A stretch of 64,000 nt of DNA from a virus, in the IMG/VR virus record IMGVR_UViG_3300044988_001028, positions 1 through 64,000 of that record; one strand, written 5' to 3'. Position numbers and translations under genes: made by a program. The notes under the pieces are model-generated. The model was not told the DNA's origin, did not search any database, and saw only the letters and a program-made list of their open reading frames with translations. Below are positions 1 to 51,519 of the stretch, one piece after another. Positions within the stretch are counted from its first letter, which is position 1. Each line of letters begins with the position of its first letter.

Positions 1-266
1 TTCTCAAGTGGGATTATGCAGACCCAAAGGCTGTTCTGGTTGAAACTTTCGAAGTGGATGTTCTCGAATGGTTTTCTGAGTATTCCAGATTCTTTCGTAA
101 TGGTAATTTCTTGATTGAGGATTTCGCCAAAGACTTTGTGCAGGTTTTCTGGAACTAGGTTGAAGTCTACGATTTCTTCTCCGTAAGTGTTCTCCTTGAA
201 CTGGAGGTCTTTTACCACTTCATATAGATTTTGCGTGTTGTAGAAATTTTCTATCTGTATTATCAA
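1..266 (-). CDS. Unknown phage structural protein, 3' part missing at the window edge
   Basis: About 88 codons are open on the minus strand and run off the left edge, so only the N-terminus is seen. An in-frame stop lies just upstream, and the only plausible start is a TTG at 264-266. It overlaps the stop of the RCC1 gene before it and has an AGGA-like ribosome site. The peptide is acidic and contains the segments FYNTQNLYEVVKDLQF and FENIHFESFNQNSLW. I do not recognise the family. Translational coupling to the fibre genes suggests a virion or baseplate protein; this is inference from context. Confidence 0.6.
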   Translation of the reverse strand, partial: MIIQIENFYNTQNLYEVVKDLQFKENTYGEEIVDFNLVPENLHKVFGEILNQEITITKESGILRKPFENIHFESFNQNSLWVCIIPLE

Positions 267-1468
267 AAATCACCGTCCTTTATTGCTGCTGTATTTACTG
301 ATCCGCAAGAAACACTTTTCCAGTTTTGTCCATATAAAATAGTCTGCACAGGTGATGATCTGCTTGCCGATGAGTTGTCGCCAAGTTGACCAAAAAAATT
401 TCTTCCCCAAGTCCACAAAGTTCCATTGTTCTTTATTGCTGCGGTAAATTTTTCTCCACAAGAAACGGATTTCCAGTCAGTTCCGCCACAAATTGTTTGA
501 ACAGGTGATGATTTATCAACAGTTGTGTTGTCACCTAATTGACCATTTGTATTAGAACCCCAACACCATAATGTGCCATCAGTCTTTATTGCTGCTGTAT
601 TTTGATAGCCAGAAGCTACTTGTTTCCAGTTTGTACCATATGCAATCGTTTGAATTGGTGATGATCTATTTGTAGTTGTATTGTCGCCTAAGCCACCAGA
701 ATTGTTATACCCCCAAGTCCACAAAGTTCCATCTGTCTTGATCGCTGCTACATTGTAACTTCCACAAGCCACTTGTTTCCAATTTGTTCCTCTGGTTACC
801 GTTTGAACAGGTGAAGATTTATTTACACTTGTATTGTCCCCTAATTGACCATAAGAATTTCCGCCCCAAGTCCAAAGTGTTCCATCATTTTTTATTGCTG
901 CTGTTGTAGATCTATATCCAGCAGAAACTTGTTTCCAATTTGTGCCAAATGCAATCGTTTGAACTGGTGAAGATCTATTTGTACTTGTATTGTCACCAAG
1001 CTGTCCGCTTGTATTTCTGCCCCAATTCCACAAAGTTCCATCAGTCTTTGTCGCTGCACAATGGTACGATCCAGAAGACACACTTTTCCAGTTTGTTCCA
1101 CCTGCAACTGTTTGCACTGGAGATGATCTTTTTACAATTGTATTGTCGCCTAATTGTCCACTGCTATTATCTCCCCAACACCATAAGGCTCCGTCTGTTT
1201 TTATTGCAAGTGTAGAATACCCACAAGCAACACTTTTCCAATTTGCACCATAAGTAATTGTTTGGACTGGTGATGATCTTGAAGTCTGTGTGTTATCGCC
1301 TAATTGACCATAAGTGTTTCTTCCCCAAGTCATCAGCATGGGAGTATCCATTTGATTTACAATATTTGGGTATACGGAGATGAGGTAGTCCTTCTCGATC
1401 AAGGTCTTTCCAAGATCTAGTCCTTTCTCATCTATGAATCTAGTTGTGATGCTTCCTGTAACTGCCAT
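263..1468 (-). CDS. RCC1-like seven-bladed beta-propeller tail protein
   Basis: The 401-residue protein has a short N-terminal region (about 1-45) and then seven repeats of about 50 residues. Each repeat carries the pattern WGxNxxGQLGDNT...SSPVQT...NWKxV.CG...[10 protein letters not shown]. This is the RCC1/BLIP-II repeat type, which folds as a beta-propeller; seven copies match a closed seven-bladed ring. No signal peptide or enzyme motif is visible. It is the last complete gene of a minus-strand fibre cluster and follows the DUF4376-like gene with a 1-base gap. A receptor-binding or adhesin tip is the likely role, inferred from fold and context. Two more seven-repeat relatives lie upstream. 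Confidence 0.85.
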   Translation of the reverse strand: MAVTGSITTRFIDEKGLDLGKTLIEKDYLISVYPNIVNQMDTPMLMTWGRNTYGQLGDNTQTSRSSPVQTITYGANWKSVACGYSTLAIKTDGALWCWGDNSSGQLGDNTIVKRSSPVQTVAGGTNWKSVSSGSYHCAATKTDGTLWNWGRNTSGQLGDNTSTNRSSPVQTIAFGTNWKQVSAGYRSTTAAIKNDGTLWTWGGNSYGQLGDNTSVNKSSPVQTVTRGTNWKQVACGSYNVAAIKTDGTLWTWGYNNSGGLGDNTTTNRSSPIQTIAYGTNWKQVASGYQNTAAIKTDGTLWCWGSNTNGQLGDNTTVDKSSPVQTICGGTDWKSVSCGEKFTAAIKNNGTLWTWGRNFFGQLGDNSSASRSSPVQTILYGQNWKSVSCGSVNTAAIKDGDF

Positions 1469-1469
1469 A

Positions 1470-2135
1470 TTATCCTTCTGGTGTAGGTGTAGGCATGATG
1501 GGATCAGGCACTACTTCTTTCATTATTATAGTATCAACAGAAATATGATCTGCTGCGTTTTCTATTTCGTTTAATTTTGCGAATTCCCAATCGAAAGCAG
1601 CTTGAACAACCTTGTCTATTTCTGAGATGATTATTTCCAAGTCAGACTTCGTAATTTCCATCCAAGTTTCAGGGAATTTCCAATATGCCGTGAGTTCGCC
1701 TATAGACAATATTTTTGACGCATATACAGCACGACTTTCCCTGTCTGTGCTTACTGTTACTTCCTGTCCTTTAAGGGTTATCTTTATGTCTTTTATTTCC
1801 CTTGATCTTCTTTCTGAAGATAGTTGTTGTATCAAATTAGCTTTTGCTATTTGTAGTATAAGAGGTTTAACTTCATAGTTTGCTATTGCAAGGTCTTCTG
1901 TTATTTCCCAGTTAGGTCCAGTCAATTCCTCTATCTTTGGGTTGTATTCTGGTTTTATTTCCCTTACTTGGAATATCTTTGTTTCTTCGTTTATAGTCCA
2001 TGGAACATTTGCTTCGTCTGGGAAATGAACCTTGATGTCTAGCTCAAGCTCCTCTTGGAGAATTGAACTGATCATCCTTGGATTCCATTTCAATAAAGTC
2101 TGAATTATATTTCCGTTGCTTATTATTGCGTACAT
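1470..2135 (-). CDS. DUF4376-like tail fibre-associated protein
   Basis: The 221-residue protein resembles phage tail proteins with a DUF4376 domain. The C-terminal half has the typical helical run (KGQEVTVSTDRESRAVYAS, then LTAYWKFPETWMEITKSD and EIIISEIDKVVQAAFDWE). The first 90 residues (MYAIISNGNIIQTL..., VPWTINEETKIFQV) look like the N-terminal part of fibre-assembly or short fibre proteins that read a position-dependent expected value. It sits between two RCC1-propeller genes, 3 bases after one and 1 base before the other, so it is co-transcribed with them. Assembly or connection of the fibres is the probable role. The family call is from memory of the motif, not a search. Confidence 0.6.
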   Translation of the reverse strand: MYAIISNGNIIQTLLKWNPRMISSILQEELELDIKVHFPDEANVPWTINEETKIFQVREIKPEYNPKIEELTGPNWEITEDLAIANYEVKPLILQIAKANLIQQLSSERRSREIKDIKITLKGQEVTVSTDRESRAVYASKILSIGELTAYWKFPETWMEITKSDLEIIISEIDKVVQAAFDWEFAKLNEIENAADHISVDTIIMKEVVPDPIMPTPTPEG

Positions 2136-2138
2136 GTT

Positions 2139-3304
2139 TTATATATCTCCGTTCGTTACTGCTACTGTGTGATAATAACCACAAGCAACTTGTTTCCAAT
2201 TTGTTCCATATGCTGTTGTTTGTACTGGTGATGATCTTCTAGTTACTGAGCTTTGATTGCCTAATTGTCCATTATCATTATTACCCCATGACCAAAGTGT
2301 TCCATCTGTCTTTATTGCTGCTGTAACCCCATTACCACAAGAAACTTGTTTCCAATTTGTATCAAAAGTAATTGTTTGAACAGGTGAAGTTCTTTGTGTC
2401 GTTGTATTGTCACCAAGTTCACCATAAAAATTATATCCCCAAGTCCATAAAGTACCATCTGTTTTTATTGCTGCTGTGTGATAAACTCCACAAGAAACAC
2501 TTTTCCAATTTGTTCCATATGTTATTGTTTGAATTGGCGATGATCTATTTGTATTTGTATTATCTCCTAATGATCCAAATGTATTATATCCCCAACACCA
2601 AAGTGTTCCATCTGTCTTTATTGCTGCTGTATTAGAGCCTCCACAAGCAACTTGCTTCCAATTTTTTCCAAGTGCTATTGTTTGAACTGGCGAACTTCTT
2701 TTCGTTGCAGAATTGTCACCCAACTGACCAGATGAATTAAGTCCCCAACACCAAAGTGTTCCATCTGTCTTTATACATGCCGTATAAGCGTAACCACAAG
2801 ATACTTGTTTCCAATTTATTCCAAAAGCAATCGTTTGAACTGGCGAAGATTTTTTTACAATTGTATTGTCGCCTAAACCACCATTTGTATTAGAACCCCA
2901 ACACCACAAAGTTCCATCTGTCTTTATTGCTGTTGTAATCACACTACCACAAGAAACGGACTTCCAATTTGTTCCAAATGCTATTGTTTGAATTGGTGAA
3001 CTTTTTCGTACAACAGTATTATCTCCAAGTTGACCATTTGTAACATTATCTCCCCAAACCCATAAAGTGCCATCTGTCTTTATTGCAGCGGAATTGTTAG
3101 AACATCCACTAACTTGTTTCCAGTTTATACCACCAGCCACTGTTTGTACTGGATTTGACTTGCTTACAATTGTGTTATCTCCTAAATTACCATAAGAATT
3201 TCTTCCCCAAGTAAACAGTGTGTTTCCCACGAATTGGTCGAGAAGAAAAGCGTCAGAAACGAAAGCGGTTTTGAGGTCGCCATCAGGACCAGAAATGAAA
3301 GGCA

Positions 3305-3305
<1 letters not shown>
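2139..3305 (-). CDS. RCC1-like seven-bladed beta-propeller tail protein
   Basis: The 388-residue protein has a 30-residue N-terminus (MPFISGPDGDLKTAFVSDAF) followed by seven RCC1-like repeats of about 50 residues with the signature Gx[30 protein letters not shown]. The last blade has a variant GNQSSVTRR turn. The start codon overlaps the stop of the large collagen/S74 protein (TAATG). A strong AAAGGAGG ribosome site lies inside the end of that gene, so translation is coupled. The N-terminus differs from the other propeller proteins, which suggests blades were swapped onto different attachment domains. The probable role is receptor recognition at the fibre tip. Confidence 0.85.
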
Positions 3306-6721
<3,416 letters not shown>

Positions 6722-6736
6722 TTATTTGCAATGATT

Positions 6737-7294
6737 TTAAGGTTTTATGGCAAATCCGAACATAAAAAGAGTTCTTGGTGTGTTTCCATGGCAAACATCC
6801 ACACTATGATAAAGTTCAGTTACCAAGTAACACATCATGTCGCCTTCATTTAAGTCATAGGTTTTATCTTCGACATGAATAGATCCACCACTTTCAGCTT
6901 TACTAGACAGAATATTACATCTCAATCCAACTAGTCCTTCACCAACACTTGGATCTTTGTGTCTGTAAACATCTCCATCGTTGTAAGTCACGCTAACCAC
7001 AACACCGTCTTTTCCATGTCCTTCTATGACTGGAGAAATTCCTACCAATGGAACCACTTGACGGATTCGATCTTGCAAGGTTTTAACTAGTTCTGGATAG
7101 TTTATATTTTGACTCATTCTGTTTGTGAGCCTTTTTTTTGTTGTGCTGAATTCTTTCTTATCCCAATCTCCAGTAATACCATCTACGAATTGACCTTCAG
7201 CAACAGCTTTTGCAGTCCAATCTTTTAGTATTTGAATTTCTTCAGAATTGATAAAGTTTCTTATAATCATTACATTTTCATCTTTTTCTATCAT
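6737..7294 (-). CDS. 2-oxoglutarate/Fe(II) oxygenase, prolyl-hydroxylase-like
   Basis: With the ATG at 7292-7294 (AGGCAG ribosome site, 2 bases after the previous stop) the product is 185 residues. It has the double-stranded beta-helix features of 2OG oxygenases. These are an HxD pair in YRHKDPS, a distal His in ELYHSVDV and an Arg for 2OG in TPRTLFMFGF. Such enzymes hydroxylate proline, lysine or other side chains using Fe(II), O2 and 2-oxoglutarate. It lies next to the collagen-like fibre gene and a sulfotransferase, so a virion protein or glycan could be the substrate. The collagen repeats contain almost no proline, so classical collagen prolyl hydroxylation is not clearly supported. Confidence 0.8.
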   Translation of the reverse strand: MIEKDENVMIIRNFINSEEIQILKDWTAKAVAEGQFVDGITGDWDKKEFSTTKKRLTNRMSQNINYPELVKTLQDRIRQVVPLVGISPVIEGHGKDGVVVSVTYNDGDVYRHKDPSVGEGLVGLRCNILSSKAESGGSIHVEDKTYDLNEGDMMCYLVTELYHSVDVCHGNTPRTLFMFGFAIKP

Positions 7295-7296
7295 TT

Positions 7297-7794
7297 TTAC
7301 TGCCTTTTGTTTAAGTGTGGATAATCTATATATGGCGTTTTCTTTTTTAAGAAATCGCATAGTTTATCGAATTTTTCATCTTCTTTTAAATCTAGAATCA
7401 AAAGATCATCTTGTCTGTTTTTGAAATACTCTGAAACTTTCGAATGATGTCTGTGATACCCTTCAATGAATTTATCTTTATCAAAAATGAAAGACTTCCA
7501 TAACATGAATCGAGTTTCTAATTGCCAAACAGGATCTGTGCTGGATCTATGAAGAGAAGCAGCACTTTCTATCCAAGAATCTATATCTCTGGTTGTTAGT
7601 ATGAATTTAGATTCTGGATACAATAAATCTAAAAATTCGAACCTTGCAGCAACCGCTGTATCTGTGCTTGCATCAAAACTGTCTATTTCTTTATAAGACA
7701 TTGGGCAATGAATAGCTGAATAACCAAGAACTTTCAATGCTTCAGTTAAAGAAGTAGTTCCAGTTCTGGTTAGTCCTATGCCAAATACTTTCAT
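7297..7794 (-). CDS. Sulfotransferase-family protein
   Basis: The 165-residue product begins MKVFGIGLTRTGTTSL, the 5'-phosphosulfate-binding loop of PAPS-dependent sulfotransferases. It also has the 3'-phosphate motif region FILTTRDIDSWIESAASLH. At 165 residues it is shorter than typical members (about 200-300), but both cofactor motifs are present, so it is probably a minimal enzyme. Its start overlaps the stop of the preceding sulfotransferase-like gene by 4 bases (7791-7794). It belongs to a four-gene run with two relatives and an oxygenase. Sulfation of a host or virion glycan or of a tyrosine is possible; the substrate cannot be read from the sequence. Confidence 0.8.
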   Translation of the reverse strand: MKVFGIGLTRTGTTSLTEALKVLGYSAIHCPMSYKEIDSFDASTDTAVAARFEFLDLLYPESKFILTTRDIDSWIESAASLHRSSTDPVWQLETRFMLWKSFIFDKDKFIEGYHRHHSKVSEYFKNRQDDLLILDLKEDEKFDKLCDFLKKKTPYIDYPHLNKRQ

Positions 7795-8318
7795 AGCTTG
7801 CTGAAAGCCTCACAATCATATGAATATGCTTGCTTGATGAGATCTATCTGCTCTTGGCTTAAAGTTGGCATATCTCCATCTTCAGGTAAAGTAACAGTCA
7901 CATCTAATCCAAGATATGTGCAGCAATCATTTAATCCCTTATCAGAATAAGGGAAATATTTAGCATTAACACAATCTAAAATTCCCATCTTTTTCAATGA
8001 CATGAAATGTATGTTGTCAAGATTGTTCAAGCCTTCTTCAACAGAACAAGACAATCTCAAACATGAGTTTTTGAATCTTTCAACTGGATCTCTGACAATA
8101 ACGGCAAATCCTAAGTTTAAACAGTCTGTTATGCTCAAGTCTTTGACCTCTGGAACATTTATGATGGGTTTCCATTCTGTTTCAGTATTCACAAAATCAG
8201 AATTGGCTTCTGGATAATTTTTTTTAATCAATTCTTTGAATATTACTTGTGATCCGCTTCTTGTAGCAAGAGCTAGACCTATGTTGTCCTTATGCCACAT
8301 AAAACCTTTATTTGCCAT
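7791..8318 (-). CDS. Sulfotransferase-like P-loop protein
   Basis: The 175-residue protein is a paralogue of the gene at 8308-8841. Both have a Ser-rich loop in place of the first cofactor motif (LALATRSGSQVIFKELI here) and a second motif VIVRDPVERFKNSC that matches the RxPxxRxxS 3'-phosphate-binding pattern of sulfotransferases. It overlaps its neighbours by 11 and 4 bases, indicating coupled translation. The substrate is unknown. The short size and the TRSGS loop are unusual, so a diverged activity or loss of activity is possible. Confidence 0.65.
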   Translation of the reverse strand: MANKGFMWHKDNIGLALATRSGSQVIFKELIKKNYPEANSDFVNTETEWKPIINVPEVKDLSITDCLNLGFAVIVRDPVERFKNSCLRLSCSVEEGLNNLDNIHFMSLKKMGILDCVNAKYFPYSDKGLNDCCTYLGLDVTVTLPEDGDMPTLSQEQIDLIKQAYSYDCEAFSKL

Positions 8319-8841
8319 GATAGTTTTCCTTTATTTTTAAGTACAATTCATTATCGTTATGATATTTTTCAATGATCAATTTAATCTGATTATCGTTTAA
8401 AGATGGTTTTTTCTCATCTTTTTCTTCGTTGAGTTTAGGAACTGGAGTTTGAAGTCCGAGCCAATTCGCACATTCGTCAATTTGTTCTGGAAAAAGGAAA
8501 TATTTTATTCTATCGTTTAAAAGACCCATGCTTTCCATAGTCCAAAAATGAACTTCATCTTCGACCAATCCTTCTTCTACTGTTTTGTTTCGTCTTGCAC
8601 ATGCACTTCTGAATCTTTCGATTGGGTTTCTTACCATGCAGCATACTTCACATTCTGGAAGACCTAGTGTTAAATCATGCCCTTGCAAGTTCATGATTGG
8701 ATGCCAAAGTTGTTCATTTAAAACTTCTGGTTTAAATTTAACATGGTCTTTAGGCAACATTAAATTCATCAAGGCATGACTTCCACTTCGTGTCACTAAA
8801 GCTAAAGCCTTATTGTTTATCAAAGAGCAAATGCCTCTCAT
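8308..8841 (-). CDS. Sulfotransferase-like P-loop protein (paralogue)
   Basis: The 177-residue protein shows LALVTRSGSHALMNLM as a probable phosphosulfate loop and CCMVRNPIERFRSACARR as the RxPxxRxxS motif. The order of motifs and length match the gene at 7791-8318, so the two arose by duplication. The start overlaps the end of the discoidin-like gene by 4 bases. Placed directly after a carbohydrate-binding-type tail protein, it may act on a glycan recognised or carried by the fibre; this is inference. Confidence 0.65.
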   Translation of the reverse strand: MRGICSLINNKALALVTRSGSHALMNLMLPKDHVKFKPEVLNEQLWHPIMNLQGHDLTLGLPECEVCCMVRNPIERFRSACARRNKTVEEGLVEDEVHFWTMESMGLLNDRIKYFLFPEQIDECANWLGLQTPVPKLNEEKDEKKPSLNDNQIKLIIEKYHNDNELYLKIKENYHGK

Positions 8842-10103
8842 GTTATAATCCCCATAAATTGAAGACCATAAACTTGTATTGTGTAGCCAGTACCACTTTT
8901 ATTGCTAAATGTCGCACCGTTTTTTAGTTCCATTTTGTAATATCTATAAGATGCGGGAGAGGATATAGCATAGTTCACCAAGCTATTGTTGTTCGATATT
9001 CCAGTCCTATTATCTATTGATGTCCAAGTCGAATTGTTACTGCTTCCGTACAGAGTCCACGCACCAGAATTAACATTACTATTAATCATATTGTAAGAAC
9101 TTATTGTTACTGCCACTCCAAAATCAAGATAACCAGTATCCGCTATTACTCCTGTTCCTGCCGTAAATGGACCCCAACTACTTTCAAAAAACTGACCCTC
9201 AAAGTAATCTTTAAATGGAGATACAGTACTAGTTCCGTTGGTAGGTACAATCCTATTCAGATATGGTTCGTTAGTTTTCCTTGATCTAATACTAAAATCT
9301 GAAAAAGCCTTCGGAAAGCTAGTCTTAAATGCTGTGCCAGCGGTTTCTGTCAATATAGTACCAGAACTATTTAAATACTTAAGGCTTGGAAATAGAGTAT
9401 ATCCACCATGAAGCTCACAAGAAGTTTCTGGGCTTTCGTAGCCCCATAGCTGGATTTCACCTATTTGAAAACCATTTACTAGTTCTACAACTCCGCTTTT
9501 AGTGTTACGAGTAGACCTTCCACCTTTTGTGATTATCAGTCTGTAAATCTTGTATGCAGATGCACCAGTTACGGTATATTCCGAATAAGAGCAGTTTTTC
9601 GCAAGCCTGTCTGTAGCATAAGGAAATCTACTTTGCGAAGATCTTGTGTCAATTGTTGTCCAATTAATTTGATCGTTGGAACCAGATAGAGTCCAGTCTT
9701 GTGGTGTCTCGTCAGCCATATTAGTGCTAACTGTGCCATAATAAGAATTTGTGATTCCATATACATTTTCACCAAAAGAATTGTACATTCTATATTTCGT
9801 AATCACTACTGGAAGACCAAAGTTGAAATATGCTTTTTTGGTTGCAGTTGCTACTTCGGTGACATTTTTATAATGTGAATCCCAAGGATTTTGATATGGC
9901 AAGACACCAGTAAAAAGATCGTTTACATAACTATTACTCTTTGCAGTTCCATCAATTATACTGTAAGCACTAGCACTAATAATATCTACATTCCATATGG
10001 TATTATCGCTAGTAGTGAATTCATAGTATGGTCGGTATTGCGAACTCACTTGCGTGTTGTCGTATGTTGTTCCACCTCCTACTAAAGCTCTTTCAGTCGG
10101 CAT
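8838..10103 (-). CDS. Discoidin (F5/8 type C)-like tail protein
   Basis: The 421-residue protein contains two beta-sandwich segments typical of F5/8 type C (discoidin) domains. The first has VITKYRMYNSFGEN, TPQDWTLSGSNDQINWTTIDTRSSQ and YKIYRLIITKGG...IGEIQLWGY; the second has WTLYGSSNNSTWTSIDNRTG and YRYYKMELKNG. Discoidin domains commonly bind galactose-type sugars or lipids. The short N-terminus MPTERALVGGGTTYD recurs inside the neighbouring gene (PRALVGGGVTYD), so it is a shared joining element. The role is probably recognition of a surface carbohydrate by the tail. The gene lies in a polycistronic minus-strand cluster. Confidence 0.75.
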   Translation of the reverse strand: MPTERALVGGGTTYDNTQVSSQYRPYYEFTTSDNTIWNVDIISASAYSIIDGTAKSNSYVNDLFTGVLPYQNPWDSHYKNVTEVATATKKAYFNFGLPVVITKYRMYNSFGENVYGITNSYYGTVSTNMADETPQDWTLSGSNDQINWTTIDTRSSQSRFPYATDRLAKNCSYSEYTVTGASAYKIYRLIITKGGRSTRNTKSGVVELVNGFQIGEIQLWGYESPETSCELHGGYTLFPSLKYLNSSGTILTETAGTAFKTSFPKAFSDFSIRSRKTNEPYLNRIVPTNGTSTVSPFKDYFEGQFFESSWGPFTAGTGVIADTGYLDFGVAVTISSYNMINSNVNSGAWTLYGSSNNSTWTSIDNRTGISNNNSLVNYAISSPASYRYYKMELKNGATFSNKSGTGYTIQVYGLQFMGIIT

Positions 10104-10112
10104 AATTCACCT

Positions 10113-11443
10113 TTATGTTAAATATCCTTGTAGCTGTATATCTCTTATTAGACCATAGAAGCCACCTCCAGACTTCTGGCTCGCAGTAGCCGAACTACCA
10201 AATATTGATATTCTGTAGTAAGAATATAAAGCTGGAGAAGCAATCGTAAAAGTAGCAGCAGAACCAACTGTTGCGAGTGTTCTTGTGTCTAATAATGTCC
10301 ATGTTCCAAAAGTGTTCGCACCATAAACTCTAAATGAATAAGTAGGAATAGCACCAAACACATTACTACTCCAAAGTTTATATGAAGTCAATGTGATAGG
10401 GTAATCAAATCCCAGATATCCCTCTTTCGTAGATCCAGCAGCAACAAAGAAAGCATTTGCGTTGTTTTTTGCAGTAGTCCATGCAGCTATACTATCAGTA
10501 AGGTTTAGAACAGTTCTCATGTTGAATGCGGAACTGAATGGATCAGTATTCGTAACCACACCAGAACTTGTTAGATATTTCACAGTAGGGAGTAAGGTAT
10601 TATATCCATGCAAAGCACATGGTGTTGTTGGGCTTTCATATCCCCACAATTGTACTTCTCCGAGTTGAGTGTCATAACTACAATTACCACTCTTGCCACA
10701 ATTCCAACCTGTTCTACCTCTTGCCGAGAGAACAAGTCTGTAAGATTTATAAGCTGCGGGTGATGATATCTCGAATTCCGAATAGCTGCTTGTTGCTGGA
10801 TCATTTGTGCTGGCATAAGGCAACATCGCTTGGCTAGTTCTTGTATCGACTGTTGTCCAACTTATTTCATCGTTGCTGCCTTGCAATGACCATGCTTGCG
10901 GAGTTTGATTGCCTAAATCAGAATAATTTTGATAAACTCCAATATTAGCCATGAACCCATTCCACATTCTATATTTCGTTATGACTGTTGGAATTCTAAA
11001 ATCAAAAATGAATGTCGGTAATGCTTTGCTCGAAACGGTATAGCTATAAGAACTATTCAAGGTGTTCTGTAGTGGGAGATAACCGTTTAAAATACAATTG
11101 TTAAGGTTGTTGTTTACAGATGTAAAATATTGTCTGTAATCAGCATTTATGAATGTTGGATCATAAGTCACACCACCGCCAACTAAAGCTCTTGGTGTCG
11201 AATTAACACTTAATATCATCGTGTTTGGTGCTGCTGTCGTTGTGGTAGTTGTAGTCGTGGTTGTAGGTGCTGCTGTCGTAGTAGTTGTAGTCGTGGTTGT
11301 AGGTGCTGCTGTAGTTGTAGTTGTAGTTGTAGTCGTAGTTGTAGGTGCTGCTGTCGTAGTAGTTGTAGTCGTGGTAGTACCAGAGCTAGTAAAGGCTTTA
11401 AGCTGACCTTTCAAAATCATGCTTCCTAGTATTTTCAATCCCA

Positions 11444-11444
<1 letters not shown>
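10113..11444 (-). CDS. Discoidin-like tail protein with Thr-rich mucin-like linker
   Basis: The chosen start is the ATG at 11442-11444, which overlaps the upstream stop (TAATG) and gives 443 residues. After about 20 residues (MGLKILGSMILKGQLKAF) comes a low-complexity linker of four poly-Thr tracts separated by AAP, about residues 25-80. Two discoidin-like beta-sandwich domains follow (TPQAWSLQGSNDEISWTTVD; YSFRVYGANTFGTWTLLDTR; YYRISIFGSS). Thr-rich linkers of this type are frequent O-glycosylation targets in other proteins. The gene directly follows a collagen-like fibre gene and shares the ALVGGGxTYD element with the next gene. It is a receptor-binding candidate. Confidence 0.75.
11224..11385. 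repeat. Trinucleotide repeat tract encoding poly-Thr/AAP linker
   Basis: The plus strand shows long runs of GTN/GGT triplets (GTTGTAGTCGTGGTTGTAGGTGCTGCT and variants) that read as poly-Thr with AAP interruptions on the minus strand. Four blocks are visible. Such tracts are prone to slippage, so linker length may vary between isolates. Confidence 0.8.
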
Positions 11445-12601
<1,157 letters not shown>

Positions 12602-12603
12602 TC

Positions 12604-12642
12604 AAAAAAAAATCTTTTGCCTTTTACAGCAAAAGATTTTTT
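12604..12642 (-). terminator. Rho-independent terminator of the collagen-like gene upstream
   Basis: Read on the minus strand, AAATCTTTTGC pairs with GCAAAAGATTT around an 8-base loop and is followed by a run of T. It lies 27 bases past the stop of the gene at 12669-14942. The plus strand also ends in T after the stem, so it may work both ways. Confidence 0.8.
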
Positions 12643-12668
12643 GGTTGCTTGATTAGAGCAAATTGAAA

Positions 12669-14972
<2,304 letters not shown>

Positions 14973-15015
14973 TTATCTCTATGTATTGGCTGTAAGCAAA
15001 ACAATAAATTTGTTA

Positions 15016-15043
15016 TCGGTGAAAATATGTAGTTCGGTGAAAA
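15016..15043. promoter_or_regulatory. Two direct TCGGTGAAAA repeats between fibre genes
   Basis: TCGGTGAAAA occurs at 15016-15025 and again at 15034-15043, 18 bases apart, in the gap between two minus-strand fibre genes. Near-two-turn spacing is what a dimeric DNA-binding protein would use, but no binding protein is known. It may be chance. Confidence 0.3.
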
Positions 15044-15045
15044 AT

Positions 15046-17263
<2,218 letters not shown>

Positions 17264-22274: not shown

Positions 22275-22721
22275 ATGAAAAATGTAATCAATATTTTTTT
22301 AGCATCTATATGTCTTGCTTTGATATTCTTAACAAGAAACACTAATTCAAATAAAAGTGAAAATATATCTATAAATCAAACATCTAAAGATGTTGTCATT
22401 CAAAAAGATGACATTTATGAAAATGCGAAAAAAACAGCAAAAAAAGAAAACAAATCAATAATTCTTGTTTTTGGAGCAAATTGGTGTGTGTGGTGTCAAA
22501 AATTTGAGCATGATACATTAACTTCAAGTAGGTCAATTAGTGCTGTGGAATCTCATAATGCAATTATCGTTAAAATAAATGTTGATAAAAATCAAAGTAC
22601 TGCAGGAAAATATGGAGTTAAATCCATACCTTGCACAATTATTGTGGATAAAAATGAAAATGAAATTAAAAGAAAAGTAGGATATATGAATATTCGTGAT
22701 TTTATATCTTGGCTTGATTAA
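22275..22721 (+). CDS. Membrane-anchored thioredoxin-like protein
   Basis: The 148-residue protein has an N-terminal hydrophobic segment (about 4-20, VINIFLASICLALIFL), acting as signal anchor or signal peptide. A thioredoxin fold follows with the active-site motif WCVWC (about 74-78) and the cis-Pro segment VKSIPCTIIVD. This resembles DsbD-gamma or thiol-disulfide proteins of the periplasm. It could assist disulfide formation in the Cys-rich virion proteins encoded elsewhere in the window, or alter host envelope redox state. A TAGGAG site lies 4 bases upstream of the ATG, and the gene follows the preceding one by 7 bases. Confidence 0.82.
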   Translation: MKNVINIFLASICLALIFLTRNTNSNKSENISINQTSKDVVIQKDDIYENAKKTAKKENKSIILVFGANWCVWCQKFEHDTLTSSRSISAVESHNAIIVKINVDKNQSTAGKYGVKSIPCTIIVDKNENEIKRKVGYMNIRDFISWLD

Positions 22722-23407
22722 AATTCATATATGAATAAATTTTTAAAATGCTCTAAAGTAGTATCATCTATACCAGTCTTATATAGTTGAATATCAAAAT
22801 TCATCTTTTGCATCACACATTCTTTAGAAAGTTTTTCAAAGTATGGAGACAAAACTAAATAGTACGGAGATATTTTACCAAAATTAACATATCGGTATAA
22901 CGATCCATCTTTTTCAAATTCTTTAAATTTTTCATAAGTTGGTTTATTTCCAAAATGTAAGTCAAAAAATTCTTTTGTTTTTTTAAGAGCCTCAATGATT
23001 TTGGGATTGTTAACTTTAGTTGTAGCGGTTTTTGACCTAATTTGAACAGTGGTATCATATTTCTTCTTCCATAATTTCCATCGTTTCCAAGCTTTATCTC
23101 CAACCAAACAATTAACTTCTATAAGTGGATGACCTTTATCTAAACTTATATGTTTCAATATATCTAATTGCGCTCGAACATATAATGGATAATCGTCATC
23201 TCCTATAAATCCAGAAGTTTCACGAATTAGCTTATAGCAAACTTTAAACATTAAAGTTTTTCTTGGATCTCCTTTTCCAAATTTATTGTGATTATAACTT
23301 GGAAATATTTTTTTACTCATTTCCATCCATATTTGACATACTTTCAAAGCTTTTACTTCTAATTCATCCATCTTGTATTTCTCAGCTAGTTTTTTTAAAT
23401 CGATCAT
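22718..23407 (-). CDS. Hypothetical protein
   Basis: The 229-residue basic protein (MIDLKKLAEKYKMDELEVKA...) is helical and rich in Lys and aromatic residues. The second in-frame ATG has the better spacing from an AGGG site; the first adds two residues. A WKRWKLWKKK patch suggests nucleic-acid binding. No family is recognised. It overlaps the thioredoxin-like gene tail to tail by 4 bases. Confidence 0.6.
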   Translation of the reverse strand: MIDLKKLAEKYKMDELEVKALKVCQIWMEMSKKIFPSYNHNKFGKGDPRKTLMFKVCYKLIRETSGFIGDDDYPLYVRAQLDILKHISLDKGHPLIEVNCLVGDKAWKRWKLWKKKYDTTVQIRSKTATTKVNNPKIIEALKKTKEFFDLHFGNKPTYEKFKEFEKDGSLYRYVNFGKISPYYLVLSPYFEKLSKECVMQKMNFDIQLYKTGIDDTTLEHFKNLFIYEF

Positions 23408-23489
23408 TATCATACCCTATAAATGAAATTTCTCAAGATGGCATTTTATCTAGTTGAAAATTATCTTAGATTAAAGTATCATATCACAA

Positions 23490-23546
23490 ATGAATGAAAT
23501 TATTTTATTACTTTGGTTAGCATTGATTACGATAATCGTCATTTAA
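23490..23546 (+). CDS. Possible 18-residue membrane microprotein
   Basis: In the gap before the polymerase, ATG at 23490 opens an 18-codon frame, MNEIILLLWLALITIIVI, which is a perfect single membrane helix. No strong ribosome site is visible. Hydrophobic AT-rich codons can give this by chance, so it is only a candidate. Confidence 0.2.
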   Translation: MNEIILLLWLALITIIVI

Positions 23547-23704
23547 GTAATTGGAAAAATTCTTTCATTTTTATCAAAACAAGAATTAGATTAATCACAT
23601 TCGTAGTTTTTTAAATGATTATTGAAAATGAAATTATTTTTTCAAAATAATCGATTGCAATTTTATCTTACCTAAATTATAATAATCCTACTTGTCATAG
23701 AAAC

Positions 23705-23712
23705 TATAAATA
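23705..23712 (+). promoter_or_regulatory. Candidate T4-type late promoter TATAAATA
   Basis: TATAAATA matches the T4 late promoter core exactly. It lies directly before the structured segment that starts near 23713, with no protein gene for 500 bases downstream, so it would transcribe the candidate RNA. Confidence 0.55.
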
Positions 23713-24126
23713 ACTAAGACGGAAGCTTACTCTTCCCCTTTAGGTAATTGTTGAGGATACCCCAACGATAACTTACCGTGAAAAAAACTTGAGCAGCCCT
23801 GACGGGTAAGTCTTTGTAGTGAAAAACACGAATGGTGCAACGAGAACCATTGTTATGCTCGAAAAGCCAAGTCTTCCGCAGTTGTGTCAAAAATAGCCGA
23901 CTCTCATTTTGCAGACAAGAAATGGGAACAACTGTGAGTTATATGGCTTCATTGGTATCAATTGTTCAAAACACAAGGAATCTTATGATGTTCATAAGAA
24001 TTCATACTATGAGTTATCAGTTGAATCAAATGAATTACGATATGTTTAAACACAGAAACAATTCAATTGATTATGTATGTAATTTCATTTAATTCATACA
24101 TTAAACAGCAAGATAACTAAGTCGGC
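23713..24126 (+). ncRNA. Candidate large structured non-coding RNA upstream of DNA polymerase
   Basis: About 410 bases without a convincing protein gene contain many helices. Local ones are GGAAG/CTTCC (from 23721), GGTAA/TTACC (23743/23773) enclosing TTGTTGAGG/CCCCAACGA, AATGGT/ACCATT (23831/23846), CTTATGA/TCATAAG (23982/23992), AATTCAT/ATGAATT (23999/24030) and ATGTATG/CATACAT (24073/24095). Longer ones are CAGTTGT/ACAACTG (23879/23928) and GAACAA/TTGTTC (23926/23962), which are mutually exclusive. ATAACTAAGNCGG flanks both ends (23710 and 24113). GC content in the first 200 bases is above that of the neighbours. Size and setting recall large ornate phage RNAs such as GOLLD or ROOL, but I cannot match a consensus. 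A degenerate intron is an alternative. Confidence 0.5.
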
Positions 24127-24224
24127 AACTCGGTTTACAATATAAAGATATAAAAATAGTAGAAAAATATTTTGTTACGACTTTTCTCTATTGATTTAAG
24201 TTCAAGCTATGGTAGATTTTATGT

Positions 24225-25619
24225 ATGAGTTCCATGCATCCTAGTCAAATTGTTAAGCTGTTGTATGATCATGCAGCAACAGGGGCTGTTTACCTTTCAG
24301 CTACGGATGCTGTATTGGACTTTACGAGCAGAGAAAAGGCTAAAGAAGCCACGATATTTATTTGTTCTTCTTTTGGTTCGCATGAGATACCTTTGGATGG
24401 AGATTGGTCTGCAAGAATATTTTCCAAGGCTTTTTCTAATTCTTTGTGTTGTGAAGGCAAAAAGATACTTGTTTGGAACTGGAAAGTCATAGCTTCGTTT
24501 TTGTTGGGAATGTATGGGATTACTATTGAATTTAAGGGAACACTCATTGATCTTAAGATTTTGGAAAGCTACACAGATACGAAGCTCGAAAAGCCAAAAA
24601 CCATGATTGAATTCATGGGAAGATTGAAAAAGGTCATGTCTTCTGATAATTGGTCTAAAACACAAAAGATTTATAAGTCGGTTCATCTTCCCTTAGCTTT
24701 GGAAGTAGTTCCTTCGCTAGAAACGATTGGCATATTGACAACCGAAAAGCTACATGCCTTTTATGACATAACTGGTCAAGAAAATGGAAGAATGCTTTGC
24801 TATAAGGCTCTCACAAGATCATTCGTTCCGCATGTCATAAGTCCAGAACAGCGTGAATTATTGAAGCCTTTGGATTTTGATTCCGTATTTGTTTATATGG
24901 ATTACAAAAGCATGGAAGTTAAAATGTTGGGTTGGTTGTCTGGTGATGAGGAAATAAATGGTTTGTGTGATAGCGAAGACATCTACAGAGTTGCTTATGA
25001 GAAAATTTTGAAAACTCCTTGTGATTCCGAAGACAAAAGATCATTATGTAAAAAAATATTTTTACCTGTCTTTTATGGTATGAGTGCTTATGGAATATCA
25101 GAGAAGTTTGGATTACCAATAAAAGTCGCAGAAGCAATTGTTGACCGAATTAAAAATATATTTTTTAAAGCCTACAAGTGGATTGAAGATCACCAGAACA
25201 AAGCCGAAATCGATAAAAAAGTTGTGGATTATTGTGGCAAAATAAGGCATTTTCAAGATAAGTCTTATAGGGCTAGAAATTTTGCAGTTCAGTCTCCTTC
25301 TGCCATTTATTGTTTGTATCAATTGATTGGTCTTTACAAATCCTTGAATGGTATTGGGAGAATAGCTTATAATGTACATGACGGGTATATGATTTATGCA
25401 AACAGGGAAAAATTAAAAGAAGTTATTTTGGCTTCCCATAAATCGTTGGTTTCAGAATGTAATTTATTTCCAAATTTGAGCATGAGCATTTCTTGCTCTG
25501 TTGGAAGAAAAATTACTGAGATGAAAACAATTAAACTGCCAAATAGGACTAAGAATGAAAAATCAAAAGAATCCGAAAAACATTTGCCAATCGTTTCCGA
25601 TAACTCAATTGGAATATGA
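24225..25619 (+). CDS. Family A DNA polymerase with degenerate exonuclease domain
   Basis: The 464-residue protein has the three polymerase motifs. Motif A is FVYMDYKSMEVKMLGW (about 220-235), motif B is RSLCKKIFLPVFYGMSAYG (about 270-288), and motif C is AYNVHDGYMIYA (about 379-390), where the usual HDE is HDG. The first 200 residues align in outline with a proofreading domain (ILVWNWKVIASFLLGMYGI, LIDLKILESY). The acidic exonuclease residues, including the Asp of NxxxD, are missing, so proofreading is probably lost. It is short for the family. No strong ribosome site is seen; an in-frame stop 20 bases upstream limits the start. The large RNA candidate is directly upstream. Confidence 0.85.
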   Translation: MSSMHPSQIVKLLYDHAATGAVYLSATDAVLDFTSREKAKEATIFICSSFGSHEIPLDGDWSARIFSKAFSNSLCCEGKKILVWNWKVIASFLLGMYGITIEFKGTLIDLKILESYTDTKLEKPKTMIEFMGRLKKVMSSDNWSKTQKIYKSVHLPLALEVVPSLETIGILTTEKLHAFYDITGQENGRMLCYKALTRSFVPHVISPEQRELLKPLDFDSVFVYMDYKSMEVKMLGWLSGDEEINGLCDSEDIYRVAYEKILKTPCDSEDKRSLCKKIFLPVFYGMSAYGISEKFGLPIKVAEAIVDRIKNIFFKAYKWIEDHQNKAEIDKKVVDYCGKIRHFQDKSYRARNFAVQSPSAIYCLYQLIGLYKSLNGIGRIAYNVHDGYMIYANREKLKEVILASHKSLVSECNLFPNLSMSISCSVGRKITEMKTIKLPNRTKNEKSKESEKHLPIVSDNSIGI

Positions 25620-26130
25620 TCATCTTACTAAGTGCTTTGGAAAGCTTTGTTATTACGCAGCACATCAATTGCAAAAGAAAAATTCAAAAAATAATTACAC
25701 TGATGATTTTGAAGATATAAATCAAGAATTGCAATTGTCAATCATTCGTGCTGGATCTTATTATAAAAGACAGATATATATTGAGAAGTGTTTGGCTTCT
25801 GTAGATCAGCACAATATTGATGGCTTCATGAAGAAGATAATAGTGAAGCTTCAAGATTTGTGGAGCAATAGAACTAGGCATGGTGCGAACAGACAGAAGT
25901 TTGGATACAAGCAGGAACGCATGCTTGATTTGATTGTGAAGTCTGTAGTTCCAAAGAAATTTAGACCAGATAGAAATGAACGATTGAAAATAGACACAAA
26001 ATTTTCCACATACTGCAAAGCAATTGTTTGGAATGGGCAAAAAAGTATGGGCAAAAAAATAACAAGAGAGAAATCAATAAGATCGGGTCAGGTTTCTCTT
26101 TCTGAATATGATTATTTAAATGGCGAATAG
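25555..26130 (+). CDS. Sigma-factor-like protein, possible late sigma
   Basis: The 191-residue basic protein begins within the polymerase gene, 65 bases before its stop, with AGGA 5 bases before the ATG. It has a segment DDFEDINQELQLSIIRAGSYYKR that resembles sigma region 2 (DLxQEGxxGLxRA). A C-terminal part follows, FSTYCKAIVWNGQKSMGKKITREKS, like the DNA-facing helix of that region (FxTYaxxxIRxxI). The T4 late sigma gp55 is of similar size (185 residues). Candidate TATAAATA elements in the window fit such a factor. The similarity is weak, and an unrelated DNA-binding protein is possible. Confidence 0.45.
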   Translation: MKNQKNPKNICQSFPITQLEYDHLTKCFGKLCYYAAHQLQKKNSKNNYTDDFEDINQELQLSIIRAGSYYKRQIYIEKCLASVDQHNIDGFMKKIIVKLQDLWSNRTRHGANRQKFGYKQERMLDLIVKSVVPKKFRPDRNERLKIDTKFSTYCKAIVWNGQKSMGKKITREKSIRSGQVSLSEYDYLNGE

Positions 26131-44746: not shown

Positions 44747-44943
44747 TATCGTTCAAAGAATGGTTGAAACAAAATGAAGTCGCAACAGCAGCAGCACCAG
44801 CTGCGGGTGGCGGAATGACATCGACTGGTGATGTGGCTGTTTATGCAAGACCTATTGGCATTGGAACAGTGACTAGAAAATCACCAAGTTTGATAACTGT
44901 TGATGATCTTGAGAAAAAAAAAAGAAAAAAAGTAAAATTTTAA
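44743..44943 (+). CDS. Small protein with capsid-targeting-like N-terminus
   Basis: The ATG at 44743 overlaps the previous stop (ATGA) and gives 66 residues: MISFKEWLKQNEVATAAAPA, an Ala/Gly linker and a basic end (EKKKRKKVKF). The first ten residues closely match the motif of the genes at 47634 and 47928. A basic C-terminus would suit DNA binding inside the head. GGGAGGG precedes the ATG. Confidence 0.65.
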   Translation: MISFKEWLKQNEVATAAAPAAGGGMTSTGDVAVYARPIGIGTVTRKSPSLITVDDLEKKKRKKVKF

Positions 44944-45072
44944 AAATGTTTCCTAATCTGCCAGATGTTGTCATGGGAGACATAGGTTGGTTCTAATTGC
45001 TATTCTCATTTCCCTTTATTTTTTCTATAATATAACTCATAGAATAAGATTTAACTATTTTGGAGTTATCTC

Positions 45073-49440: not shown

Positions 49441-51513
49441 ATGGACGAACTTAAAAGATTCATAGGCAGATTCAATCAAAGCAAATTTAAAATTCTTAAC
49501 GGAGAAATGTCATTTTCCGAATACATTGATCTGTGCTATCAGCAACCAAGACTTGTTCGTAATTCTTGGCAAATGATTTACGACATGATTATGGAAAAGG
49601 GTTGTCATGCCGTTGAAGAATACAGAAAGACATACAAACATTATAATTTTTTTGATAATCAGGAATGTCCAATCATTGGTCTGACACCAACTAAGGATTC
49701 TTTGGTTAAGTTCATCAAAGGTGCAGCTGGATATTTTGGTACTGAAAAAAGAATTCTTCTTTTGCACGGACCTGTAGGTAGCTCTAAATCTACAATCTGT
49801 AGATTGTTCAAGCGAGAATTGGAAAATTATTCCACAACCGATGCTGGTGCTTGGTATACTTTCAAATGGATAAATCTTCCGACTGGACAAGATGGAATTT
49901 ATGTCAAAGAAGAAGACGAATGCCCAATGCATGAGCAGCCACTTAAGTTGCTTCCTCCAGAAATTCGTAAACCTATTATGGATGATTTGAATCGAGTTCT
50001 TTCTGAGTCTGTATCTGCAGAAGAGAGAAATGAACTATATGCATTGAAGTGCGAGGGAGAGCTTGATCCAAGATGCAAGTTCTTTATGAAAGAACTTTTG
50101 ATTAGGTATGATGGAGATCTCGAAAAAGTTCTCGAAAAACATATTCGAGTAATTCGAAAAACATATAGCGAAGCAGATCGTGTTGGTATCGCCACATTCC
50201 AACCGAAAGATGAAAAAAATCAAGACTCTACAGAACTTACAGGTGATATTAATTTTAGTCGTATCAGCACCTTTGGTTCCGACTCTGACCCAAGAAGTTT
50301 TAATTTTGACGGAGAATTTTGTGTCGGAAACAGGGGAATTATAGAGTTTATAGAAGCTTTGAAGTTAGATCAAGCATTTTTATATGATCTCTTGGGAGCA
50401 AGCCAAGAGCAAAGTATTAAGCCGAAGAAGTTTGCACAAGTCTCTATTGATGAGGCAATATTTTGTCATACCAATAGCCCTGAATACGAAAGGCTTAGAA
50501 GCAATCAATATATGGAAGCGTTGCGTGACAGGACTGTAAAGATCGATGTTCCTTATACTCTTCGATGGGGCGAAGAACTTAAAATCTTGGAAAAAGATTA
50601 TGGTGTAGATAGGGTCAAACAACATATCGCACCACACACACTTGAAGTTGCTGCTCTATGGGCAGTTTTAACCAGACTTCATGATGATAAGGATGGTAAA
50701 ATTTCCTTAGTCGAAAAGGCAGAGCTTTATGACGGCAAACTTCTTTCTGGATGGACAGAAGAGCAAGTCAAAGAATTAAAGGATAGGTATCCTGATGAGG
50801 GTATGACCCGTGGTGTTTCAGTTCGTTATGTTCAAGATAAGCTTTCAAACTGCCTAGCCAATAATCATGACTATGTAAATATGTTCATGGTTCTAAATGA
50901 GCTTCGTGAAGGTTTAGAAGGAAGTTCTTTGTTGAACAATAAGGATGATGTTGGTCGATACATCACATGTATTGATTTAGTAGTTAAGAAGTTGACTGAA
51001 ATTTTAAAAGCCGAAGTTCAGAAGGCTCTTGTTGGTGATGAAGATGCGATTATTCGCCTTTGTGCTAATTACATTGATAATATCATGGCGTATATCAACA
51101 AAAGTAAGATTAAAGATCCAATCACAGGGCAAGATAGAAAGCCTGATGAAAGATTGATGCGAGCCATTGAATCTAAGATCGACATACCAGAACCGGGTGC
51201 TGATGATTTCCGTAGGCAGATAGCTGCTTTTATTGGCGACCTTGCAATCAAGCACAAGCAATTTAGTTGGGATTCTAATCCAAAATTGAGAAAAGCTTTA
51301 GAAGCAAAGCTTTTTGAAGATGTAAAAGATACCATTAAGTTGTCCGCACTCAATGTTAGCGGAGCAACTGTGGTTGATAAGGATATTCAAGAAAAAATAG
51401 ATGCGATTAAAACTCGCCTTATCAAACAGTATGGTTATAACGAAAGATCTGCAACTGATGTTCTAGATTTTGTTGGATCTATATTTGCAAGAGGCGATCT
51501 AGCCGAGGAATAA
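49441..51513 (+). CDS. prkA: PrkA-type serine protein kinase
   Basis: The 690-residue protein corresponds to PrkA/YeaG (about 640 residues). An AAA-like ATPase N-domain has LLLHGPVGSSKSTICRLFKREL (Walker A, about 108-129) and ISTFGSDSDPRSFNFDGEFC. The central conserved part is ANRGIIEF-like (VGNRGIIEFIEALK) with IDEAIFCHTNSPEYERL, then the C-terminal kinase-like region. In E. coli YeaG is a stress and nitrogen-starvation kinase co-expressed with YeaH; in Bacillus PrkA affects sporulation. The next two genes are the same partners as in bacteria. A TATAAT box and GGAG site lie upstream. Confidence 0.9.
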   Translation: MDELKRFIGRFNQSKFKILNGEMSFSEYIDLCYQQPRLVRNSWQMIYDMIMEKGCHAVEEYRKTYKHYNFFDNQECPIIGLTPTKDSLVKFIKGAAGYFGTEKRILLLHGPVGSSKSTICRLFKRELENYSTTDAGAWYTFKWINLPTGQDGIYVKEEDECPMHEQPLKLLPPEIRKPIMDDLNRVLSESVSAEERNELYALKCEGELDPRCKFFMKELLIRYDGDLEKVLEKHIRVIRKTYSEADRVGIATFQPKDEKNQDSTELTGDINFSRISTFGSDSDPRSFNFDGEFCVGNRGIIEFIEALKLDQAFLYDLLGASQEQSIKPKKFAQVSIDEAIFCHTNSPEYERLRSNQYMEALRDRTVKIDVPYTLRWGEELKILEKDYGVDRVKQHIAPHTLEVAALWAVLTRLHDDKDGKISLVEKAELYDGKLLSGWTEEQVKELKDRYPDEGMTRGVSVRYVQDKLSNCLANNHDYVNMFMVLNELREGLEGSSLLNNKDDVGRYITCIDLVVKKLTEILKAEVQKALVGDEDAIIRLCANYIDNIMAYINKSKIKDPITGQDRKPDERLMRAIESKIDIPEPGADDFRRQIAAFIGDLAIKHKQFSWDSNPKLRKALEAKLFEDVKDTIKLSALNVSGATVVDKDIQEKIDAIKTRLIKQYGYNERSATDVLDFVGSIFARGDLAEE

Positions 51514-51519
51514 TAGAAC

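Follow-up and report, generated by a model that had tools for sequence, protein, structure and literature searches.

A structured, pseudoknotted RNA of ~430 nt lies directly upstream of polA, the gene for a family-A DNA polymerase, in the 64,000-nucleotide stretch of viral DNA analyzed here (the window), and its fold, its place and its polarity are conserved among related phages. That it represents a new large RNA class is near certain. Its function we infer chiefly from the polA neighborhood, which is the main clue: tentatively, and with a likelihood somewhat short of even, we read it as a free-standing RNA that sits at the replication origin in big to huge phages of one large clade, where it would take part in the start of DNA synthesis.

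A pseudoknotted RNA with a covarying fold

The structured core spans window positions 23712 to 24137 on the plus strand. The segment 23700-24160 had a predicted minimum free energy of -109.7 kcal/mol, beating 100 of 100 dinucleotide shuffles (z -3.86). G+C content was 0.40 to 0.45 in the 5' half of the RNA (23700-23949) and 0.17 to 0.29 in the AT-rich DNA upstream (23400-23749); the 3' half, at 0.23 to 0.34, was without contrast to that upstream DNA. The original prediction had claimed a large structured RNA, perhaps of a new class, encoding no plausible protein, and on these points it held: the stems covary in relatives, no Rfam match was found in the window, and conserved protein coding across the region is ruled out, as an 86-amino-acid plus-strand frame contained 3 to 10 stops, and a 58-amino-acid minus-strand frame a frameshift or new stop, in 6 of 6 diverged relatives. 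ARAGORN identified no tRNA or tmRNA gene in the 64-kb window. There was one clear copy of the RNA per contig, and no second copy was seen in whole-contig searches.

The fold covaries among relatives. Across 7 aligned sequences, 99.4% of 168 cells were paired; across 26 sequences, in the 5' part of the RNA, 98.4% of 574 cells were paired, 23 of 24 pairs had changes on both sides (153 cells in all) and the covariation score was 0.667 versus 0.205 when shuffled (0 of 500 shuffles as high), values that lean toward the covariance model structure, to which this alignment was fitted. Slid controls of the same alignment were 37 to 49% paired, with at most 27 double-change cells. Unfitted MAFFT alignments gave double changes at 20 of 45 and 29 of 68 pairs.

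Consensus folding placed more than nine helices in the RNA, all on the plus strand. In the P1 hairpin (23721-23725/23732-23736), all five pairs had double changes and 100% of cells were paired. The P2 hairpin (23750-23766; GTTG...CAAC), taken from the sequence, presents in its loop the 5' strand of a first pseudoknot, PK1 (23756-23761 with 23954-23959), which was recovered by pair counts and also by the RNAalifold consensus. Pair counts likewise gave the P3 junction (23790-23861), composed of P3 (23790-23795/23856-23861), P3b (23796-23799/23804-23807), P4 (23819-23821/23827-23829) and P5 (23831-23836/23846-23851), the last with ACGAGA in its loop (23840-23845). P6 (23864-23868/23945-23949) and P7 (23877-23885/23928-23936), together spanning 23864-23949, were both predicted by RNAalifold and both had double changes. 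A second pseudoknot from pair counts, PK2, joins the interior of P7 (23896-23901) to the 3' end of the RNA (24121-24126). Relatives' alignments also revealed a TGTTTAAACA mini-hairpin (24043-24052), conserved with variants. Two longer pairings proposed earlier, CAGTTGT (23879) with ACAACTG (23928) and GAACAA (23926) with TTGTTC (23962), are both present as sequences at these places; as structure, the former survives within covarying P7, whereas the latter was predicted in neither of two consensus folds.

With strands chosen by eye from the 26 sequences, and with L203, L211 and L223 entered in neither count, PK1 was scored in 23 of 26 sequences and paired in 129 of 138 cells, with 2 to 4 pair types per position (slid controls, 22 to 47%); PK2 was scored in 18 of 26 and paired in 97 of 108 cells (slid controls, 14 to 47%). 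The PK2 strands varied together, reading GCCGAC/GUCGGC in the window, GCUGAC/GUCAGC in L212, L219, L224 and L229, and GGCUGA/UCAGCC in L221. L164 fails this pairing (1 of 6 paired), and by eye no partner strand was found in L166-L168, L215 or L222.

Inspection by eye further showed a possible stem closing the 5' and 3' ends (window 23712-23718 with 24129-24135, one A-C mismatch), similar to AACUGAG/CUCGGUU in L164 and L166-L168, and an extra 5' hairpin between promoter and RNA core in L166-L168 and L215. The near-identical flanking sequences noted previously proved to be exact copies of ATAACTAAGNCGG at 23710-23722 and 24113-24125. The 3' copy was kept in nearer relatives, the 5' copy no more than loosely, and since the latter is not conserved the repeat was dropped as a processing or mobility signal.

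Distribution among phages and comparison with known RNA classes

Relatives were gathered in several ways. The polA protein retrieved 9 loci, namely eight near-identical strains and L010 (82% identical to the window), and pattern searches of DNA contributed L056, L079 and four further contigs of equal score, which form a group 68% identical. The first such pattern, 14 bases long, was unspecific; among the matches listed, those judged to be chance were discarded (L133, L143 and all first-pattern loci other than L035, L045, L056 and L079). Searches with the conserved neighboring protein p191 yielded 33 and then 80 loci (80 of 127 relatives), among which nhmmer identified the RNA in L154, L155, L163 and L165, and weakly in L164. 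A covariance model built from 7 sequences, the window's own included (R1), detected L164 and L166-L168, all outside the model, at the same place (E 2.4e-6 to 1.1e-3). On 63 sources R1 gave 30 matches at E<=0.003, of which 23 were not in the model (some being near-identical copies); all 30 were before polA and on its strand, the partial L204 (E 0.12) likewise fell at this position, and all other matches had E>=1.3. A second model built from 26 sequences (R2) gave 31 matches at E<=6.4e-10 on 73 sources, 26 of these in the model, with the other four at E>=0.42. At 31 of 31 positive loci the RNA was encoded just upstream of polA, by a few hundred nucleotides, and on polA's strand. Whole-contig searches with R1 missed the RNA at its own position in G007 and, down to a cut-off of E<=1, in G005 and G006 too; locus-level searches find it in these.

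In these searches the RNA was found in viral contigs alone. No match at E<=0.1 was present in the 80 pattern stretches of bacterial genomes listed, of at least 118, and the p191 search of genome contigs returned no relative. Among phage records, p191 had one relative, LR756511, and polA matched 77 records, all but LR756511 far more distant. A match in LR756511 (240298-240469; E 0.0075) was attributed to chance, as it overlies predicted frames on the other strand and its P1 is broken. Weak DNA matches to 18 records of named phages, none covering more than 7% of the query, were likewise judged to be chance.

Rfam covers RNase P, tmRNA, introns and 6S RNA. The covariance models of Rfam 15, the check called for by the original prediction, gave no gathering-level match in the window or in 7 related loci, and at E<=10 or E<=5 the RNA regions of the window, L163, L229 and L167 had far sub-threshold matches only (snoRNA, snRNA, lncRNA, miRNA and one bacterial sRNA). 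Together with the ARAGORN negatives, these rule out a known Rfam class, a tRNA and a tmRNA. Profiles for GOLLD, ROOL and OLE are among those in Rfam, according to PMC12286853. Large structured phage RNAs are few. GOLLD and ROOL are described as large ornate RNAs found from covariation, of unknown function, with multiple pseudoknots in ROOL and lengths above 800 nt in many GOLLD RNAs (PMC12286853). The RNA described here is likewise large, ornate, pseudoknotted and found by covariation, but differs from GOLLD in its length of ~430 nt (conserved body, 23712-24137) and from both in having no Rfam match and in being tied to polA. It differs also in setting: GOLLD and ROOL RNAs often lie near tRNA islands, and the window has 0 tRNA genes. 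Among the open-licence PMC articles listed on huge or jumbo phages, on phage origins, on GOLLD/ROOL and on ICP1/GOLLD, no title or opening of an abstract described such an RNA, which does not show that it is unpublished.

The slot beside polA and its other occupants

In the window, the slot that holds the RNA is bounded on the left by a conserved divergent gene with no Pfam match (p231; 22718-23413, minus strand) and on the right by polA (24225-25619, plus strand; PF00476, E 2e-19), which is followed by p191 (25555-26130, plus strand), the probe for relatives, itself with no Pfam or PHROG match. We classed this slot in 74 loci, leaving out near-identical copies of the window, L010 and L056 groups. 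It held the RNA in 31, a protein termed ORF394 in 6, an AEP-like protein in 5 and a Prim-Pol in 1; 21 had neither an RNA match nor a recognized priming gene (classed as other), and in the remaining 10 the slot was cut off by the contig end. The Prim-Pol and AEP-like genes occupy the same slot before polA as the RNA, differing from it in that they encode proteins, and in some phages a Prim-Pol is present alongside the RNA.

The Prim-Pol, in L172, was well supported (PF09250, E 2.5e-23; PHROG annotation, DNA primase). The slot proteins of L217, L218 and L239 matched AEP-TOTE below the Pfam cut-off (E 6e-5 to 9e-5), with no PHROG match in L217 or L239; they retain DxD and S...GIH residues, which we take to be AEP motifs, and by profile L214 and L233 share the same protein. 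Its structure model (pLDDT 42) was too poor for a structure search. ORF394 (384 to 402 amino acids) lies just before polA in six loci, including L169 (3473-4657), L170 (3505-4659), L171 (3483-4658), L175 (1522-2730) and L011 (2784-3947), and it is the slot protein of LR756511. Copies tried had no Pfam or PHROG match. The top listed solved structures for its AlphaFold model (pLDDT 69; residues 230-317 mostly below 50) were family-A DNA polymerases (E from 2.3e-5, query TM 0.22 to 0.37), and hhalign gave no link between ORF394 and polA (probability 2.9%); as modeled, ORF394 may be polymerase-like.

A tree of 60 p191 proteins placed four loci with the AEP-like protein (L217, L239, L214 and L233) in one clade (96/89, starred) with L227, whose slot is cut off by the contig end. 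This clade is close to the RNA-bearing L201 and falls within a larger one of 39 rows (88/89, not starred), to which all 26 RNA rows belong; on the tree, presence of the RNA required 6 changes versus 19.7 when shuffled. Provided that midpoint rooting is correct, the RNA was ancestral in the 39-row clade and then replaced. The AEP-like protein was absent from 9 long sequences searched, 7 of them with the RNA, and ORF394 occurred solely in G008 and G009 among these 9 and in G008, G009 and LR756511 among 12 records; since the contigs are fragments, such absences are weak evidence. A 246-amino-acid Prim-Pol is encoded elsewhere in G005 and G011, both RNA-bearing, and in G012, whose slot was classed as other, so that the RNA is not simply the only primase, and a strict swap of RNA for primase is weakened by the two RNA-bearing contigs. 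LR756511, G008 and G012 gave DnaG zinc-ribbon matches, all of them below threshold.

Several slots classed as other are long and noncoding, and 8 of 9 of them folded at z -2.3 to -4.9 relative to 40 shuffles (L245, -1.9), from which diverged RNAs may be present there; the evidence is weak, as 1 of 5 RNA-bearing sequences was unremarkable in the same test (L221, z -0.1) and 1 of 3 control gaps reached -2.3. Separately, L246 encodes a Cas12f/TnpB-like protein (1707-3989; TNB domain, E 2.5e-14) upstream of polA.

Strand asymmetry and candidate functions

Strand asymmetry of such a kind serves to infer replication patterns in huge phages, as PMC7162821 describes it. We read GC skew at third codon positions, corrected for gene direction, in 8 long sequences, 6 with the RNA and 2 with ORF394; G003, with its RNA 6 kb from the contig end, was excluded, and G004 was read minus its last 1533 bases. 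In 4 of the 6 RNA contigs, which come from related phages and are not independent, the best changepoint fell within 3 kb of the RNA: the window (shift at the RNA +0.236, rank among changepoints 1/48; best 23993, RNA 23712), G004 (+0.225, rank 2/103; best 56695, site 58002), G014 (+0.183, rank 2/104; best 27548, site 24909) and G011 (+0.218, rank 4/215; best 147840, site 148721). The signal was weak in G005 (+0.064, rank 20/401; best 269937, site 70241) and G007 (+0.023, F 0.8, rank 7/115; best 8063, best positive 40567, site 37863). For the ORF394 slots, values were +0.228 (rank 2/187; best 119890, site 118693) in G009 and +0.082 (rank 8/382; best 45570, site 279032) in G008; because the switch is found at ORF394 slots too, it marks the place and not the RNA. 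Up to 80 kb from the site, noncoding DNA and genes on the minus strand shifted upward in the rightward direction in G005, G011 and G007, as did plus-strand genes in G011 and G005, with no shift of the latter in G007. In uncorrected skew, the best changepoint lay close to the RNA in G011 (148200) and G007 (38600), at a distance of 6 kb in the window (17800) and a long way from it in G005 (379100, at the contig end) and G003 (159400 versus RNA at 5932). These data support a switch in strand composition at the slot, with the G-rich side having the RNA's own polarity. Its occurrence near both RNA and ORF394 suggests that the slot looks like an origin with either occupant, and that the RNA's polarity is that of a rightward leading strand. 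Shared iterons were not found: short tandem arrays near the RNA occurred in 5 of 24 loci (L155, L164, L168, L222 and L236), with differing units and places. In L155 (1-240), a 43-nt direct repeat at the contig start, perhaps an assembly effect, is accompanied by 11-nt tandem repeats (CAGACTAATAC) immediately before the RNA.

Upstream of the core, a sigma-70-type promoter (TTGCAA-17-TATAAT; 23655-23683, plus strand) predicts a start near 23691. The best such site ended 27 to 33 nt before the core in 13 of 26 RNA loci and 43 to 48 nt before it in 5 more (L166-L168, L215 and L222). Single sites barely beat shuffles (mean 8.19 versus 7.37; 7 of 26 at p<=0.1), and window positions 22700-25700 contained 13 sigma-70-type sites versus 14.5 expected.

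On these grounds we think it possible, though below an even chance, that the RNA is an origin RNA that helps start replication as primer or scaffold. The transcription start, the origin and each step of this working are ones that we infer. A host-type RNA polymerase would transcribe the RNA from the 23655-23683 promoter; the transcript would fold into P1, P2, the P3 junction and P6/P7, plus PK1 and PK2; and its 3' end, or a point nearby, would prime the rightward leading strand for the family-A polymerase, whose gene comes next. Alternatively, the RNA could hold origin DNA and replisome together. The fixed place and strand, and the priming-type genes in the slot of some relatives, argue for an origin role; against this reading, the RNA's 3' strand is engaged in PK2, and no DNA-hybridizing tract was identified in the RNA. 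By analogy, such a working would resemble the ColE1 RNA II preprimer (origin transcript, family-A polymerase, same polarity) and T4 R-loop origins (origin transcript priming the leading strand one way); to our knowledge, T4 origins include no conserved ornate RNA fold. As the sources describe them, RNA II is made at an origin, where a family-A polymerase extends it in the transcript's own polarity (PMC4555960), and the annealed transcript at T4 origins is a leading-strand primer in one direction (PMC3016281). The likeness to RNA II is drawn from the proposed working, not from sequence; the ColE1 system further comprises an RNase H step, an antisense RNA I and a persistent DNA hybrid. The narrower proposal of a new origin-RNA class, in which a pseudoknotted primer or initiator for family-A polymerase was replaced in place by primase-type enzymes, we consider unlikely. 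If a role in replication start is true, the RNA would be a conserved, elaborate phage origin RNA and the slot a natural RNA-protein exchange.

Other functions must be weighed against the same evidence. A trans-acting or structural RNA of the GOLLD/ROOL sort (a scaffold, a cage or a binder of ribosome or polymerase), merely located beside polA, would fit the style of the molecule, which is large, pseudoknotted, present in one clear copy per contig, free of conserved protein and confined in our searches to viral contigs; it is nonetheless rather unlikely, given a place beside polA that is fixed across very divergent phages, a skew switch at that place, no tRNA genes in the window and no Rfam match. 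That same proximity is what a long 5' leader or riboswitch-like element controlling the polA operon would predict: the RNA is on the polA strand, directly upstream, at 31 of 31 loci, and a promoter scan from RNA to polA was not clearly above chance (mean 8.27 versus 7.75; 1 of 26 at p<=0.1). Against such a leader, the 3' strand closes on the interior through PK2, giving a self-contained body, and by eye TTG...TATACT-like sites lie between RNA and polA in many relatives; we regard it as distinctly unlikely.

A role in regulating translation or the RNA polymerase of host or phage (as a 6S-like mimic or a sponge) is improbable: it has nothing in its favor beyond the consensus-like promoter, it would leave the polA slot unexplained, and the RNA has no match in Rfam, 6S included. 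Least credible, and very improbable, is an RNA made late, in bulk or for packaging, from a T4-type late promoter, as originally suggested from an exact TATAAATA at 23705 (23705-23712, plus strand). The box is indeed there, a conserved TATAAATA at -10 is a feature of T4-type late transcripts, and the window encodes gp32-like and RecA-family proteins. Late expression from it is not supported, on three counts: the 7 copies in the window compare with 5.07 expected, the other six being inside genes; L010 reads TTTATTTA at this position; and the box lies inside the transcript predicted from the 23655-23683 promoter. The box was judged a chance match and rejected as a late promoter. Across these readings, the RNA's fixed place, the polymerase gene, the skew switch and the priming-type genes in the slot leave its function open to direct test.

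Elsewhere in the window, a 326-nt gap before a ThyX gene (44747-45072) was more stable when folded than all 40 of its shuffles (z -2.3). A run of probable fiber genes at 263-17232 encodes several proteins with collagen or RCC1 repeats, one of which ends in an endosialidase chaperone domain. A PrkA-type kinase adjoins a DUF444 protein at 49441-52716, a pair that is usually cellular.
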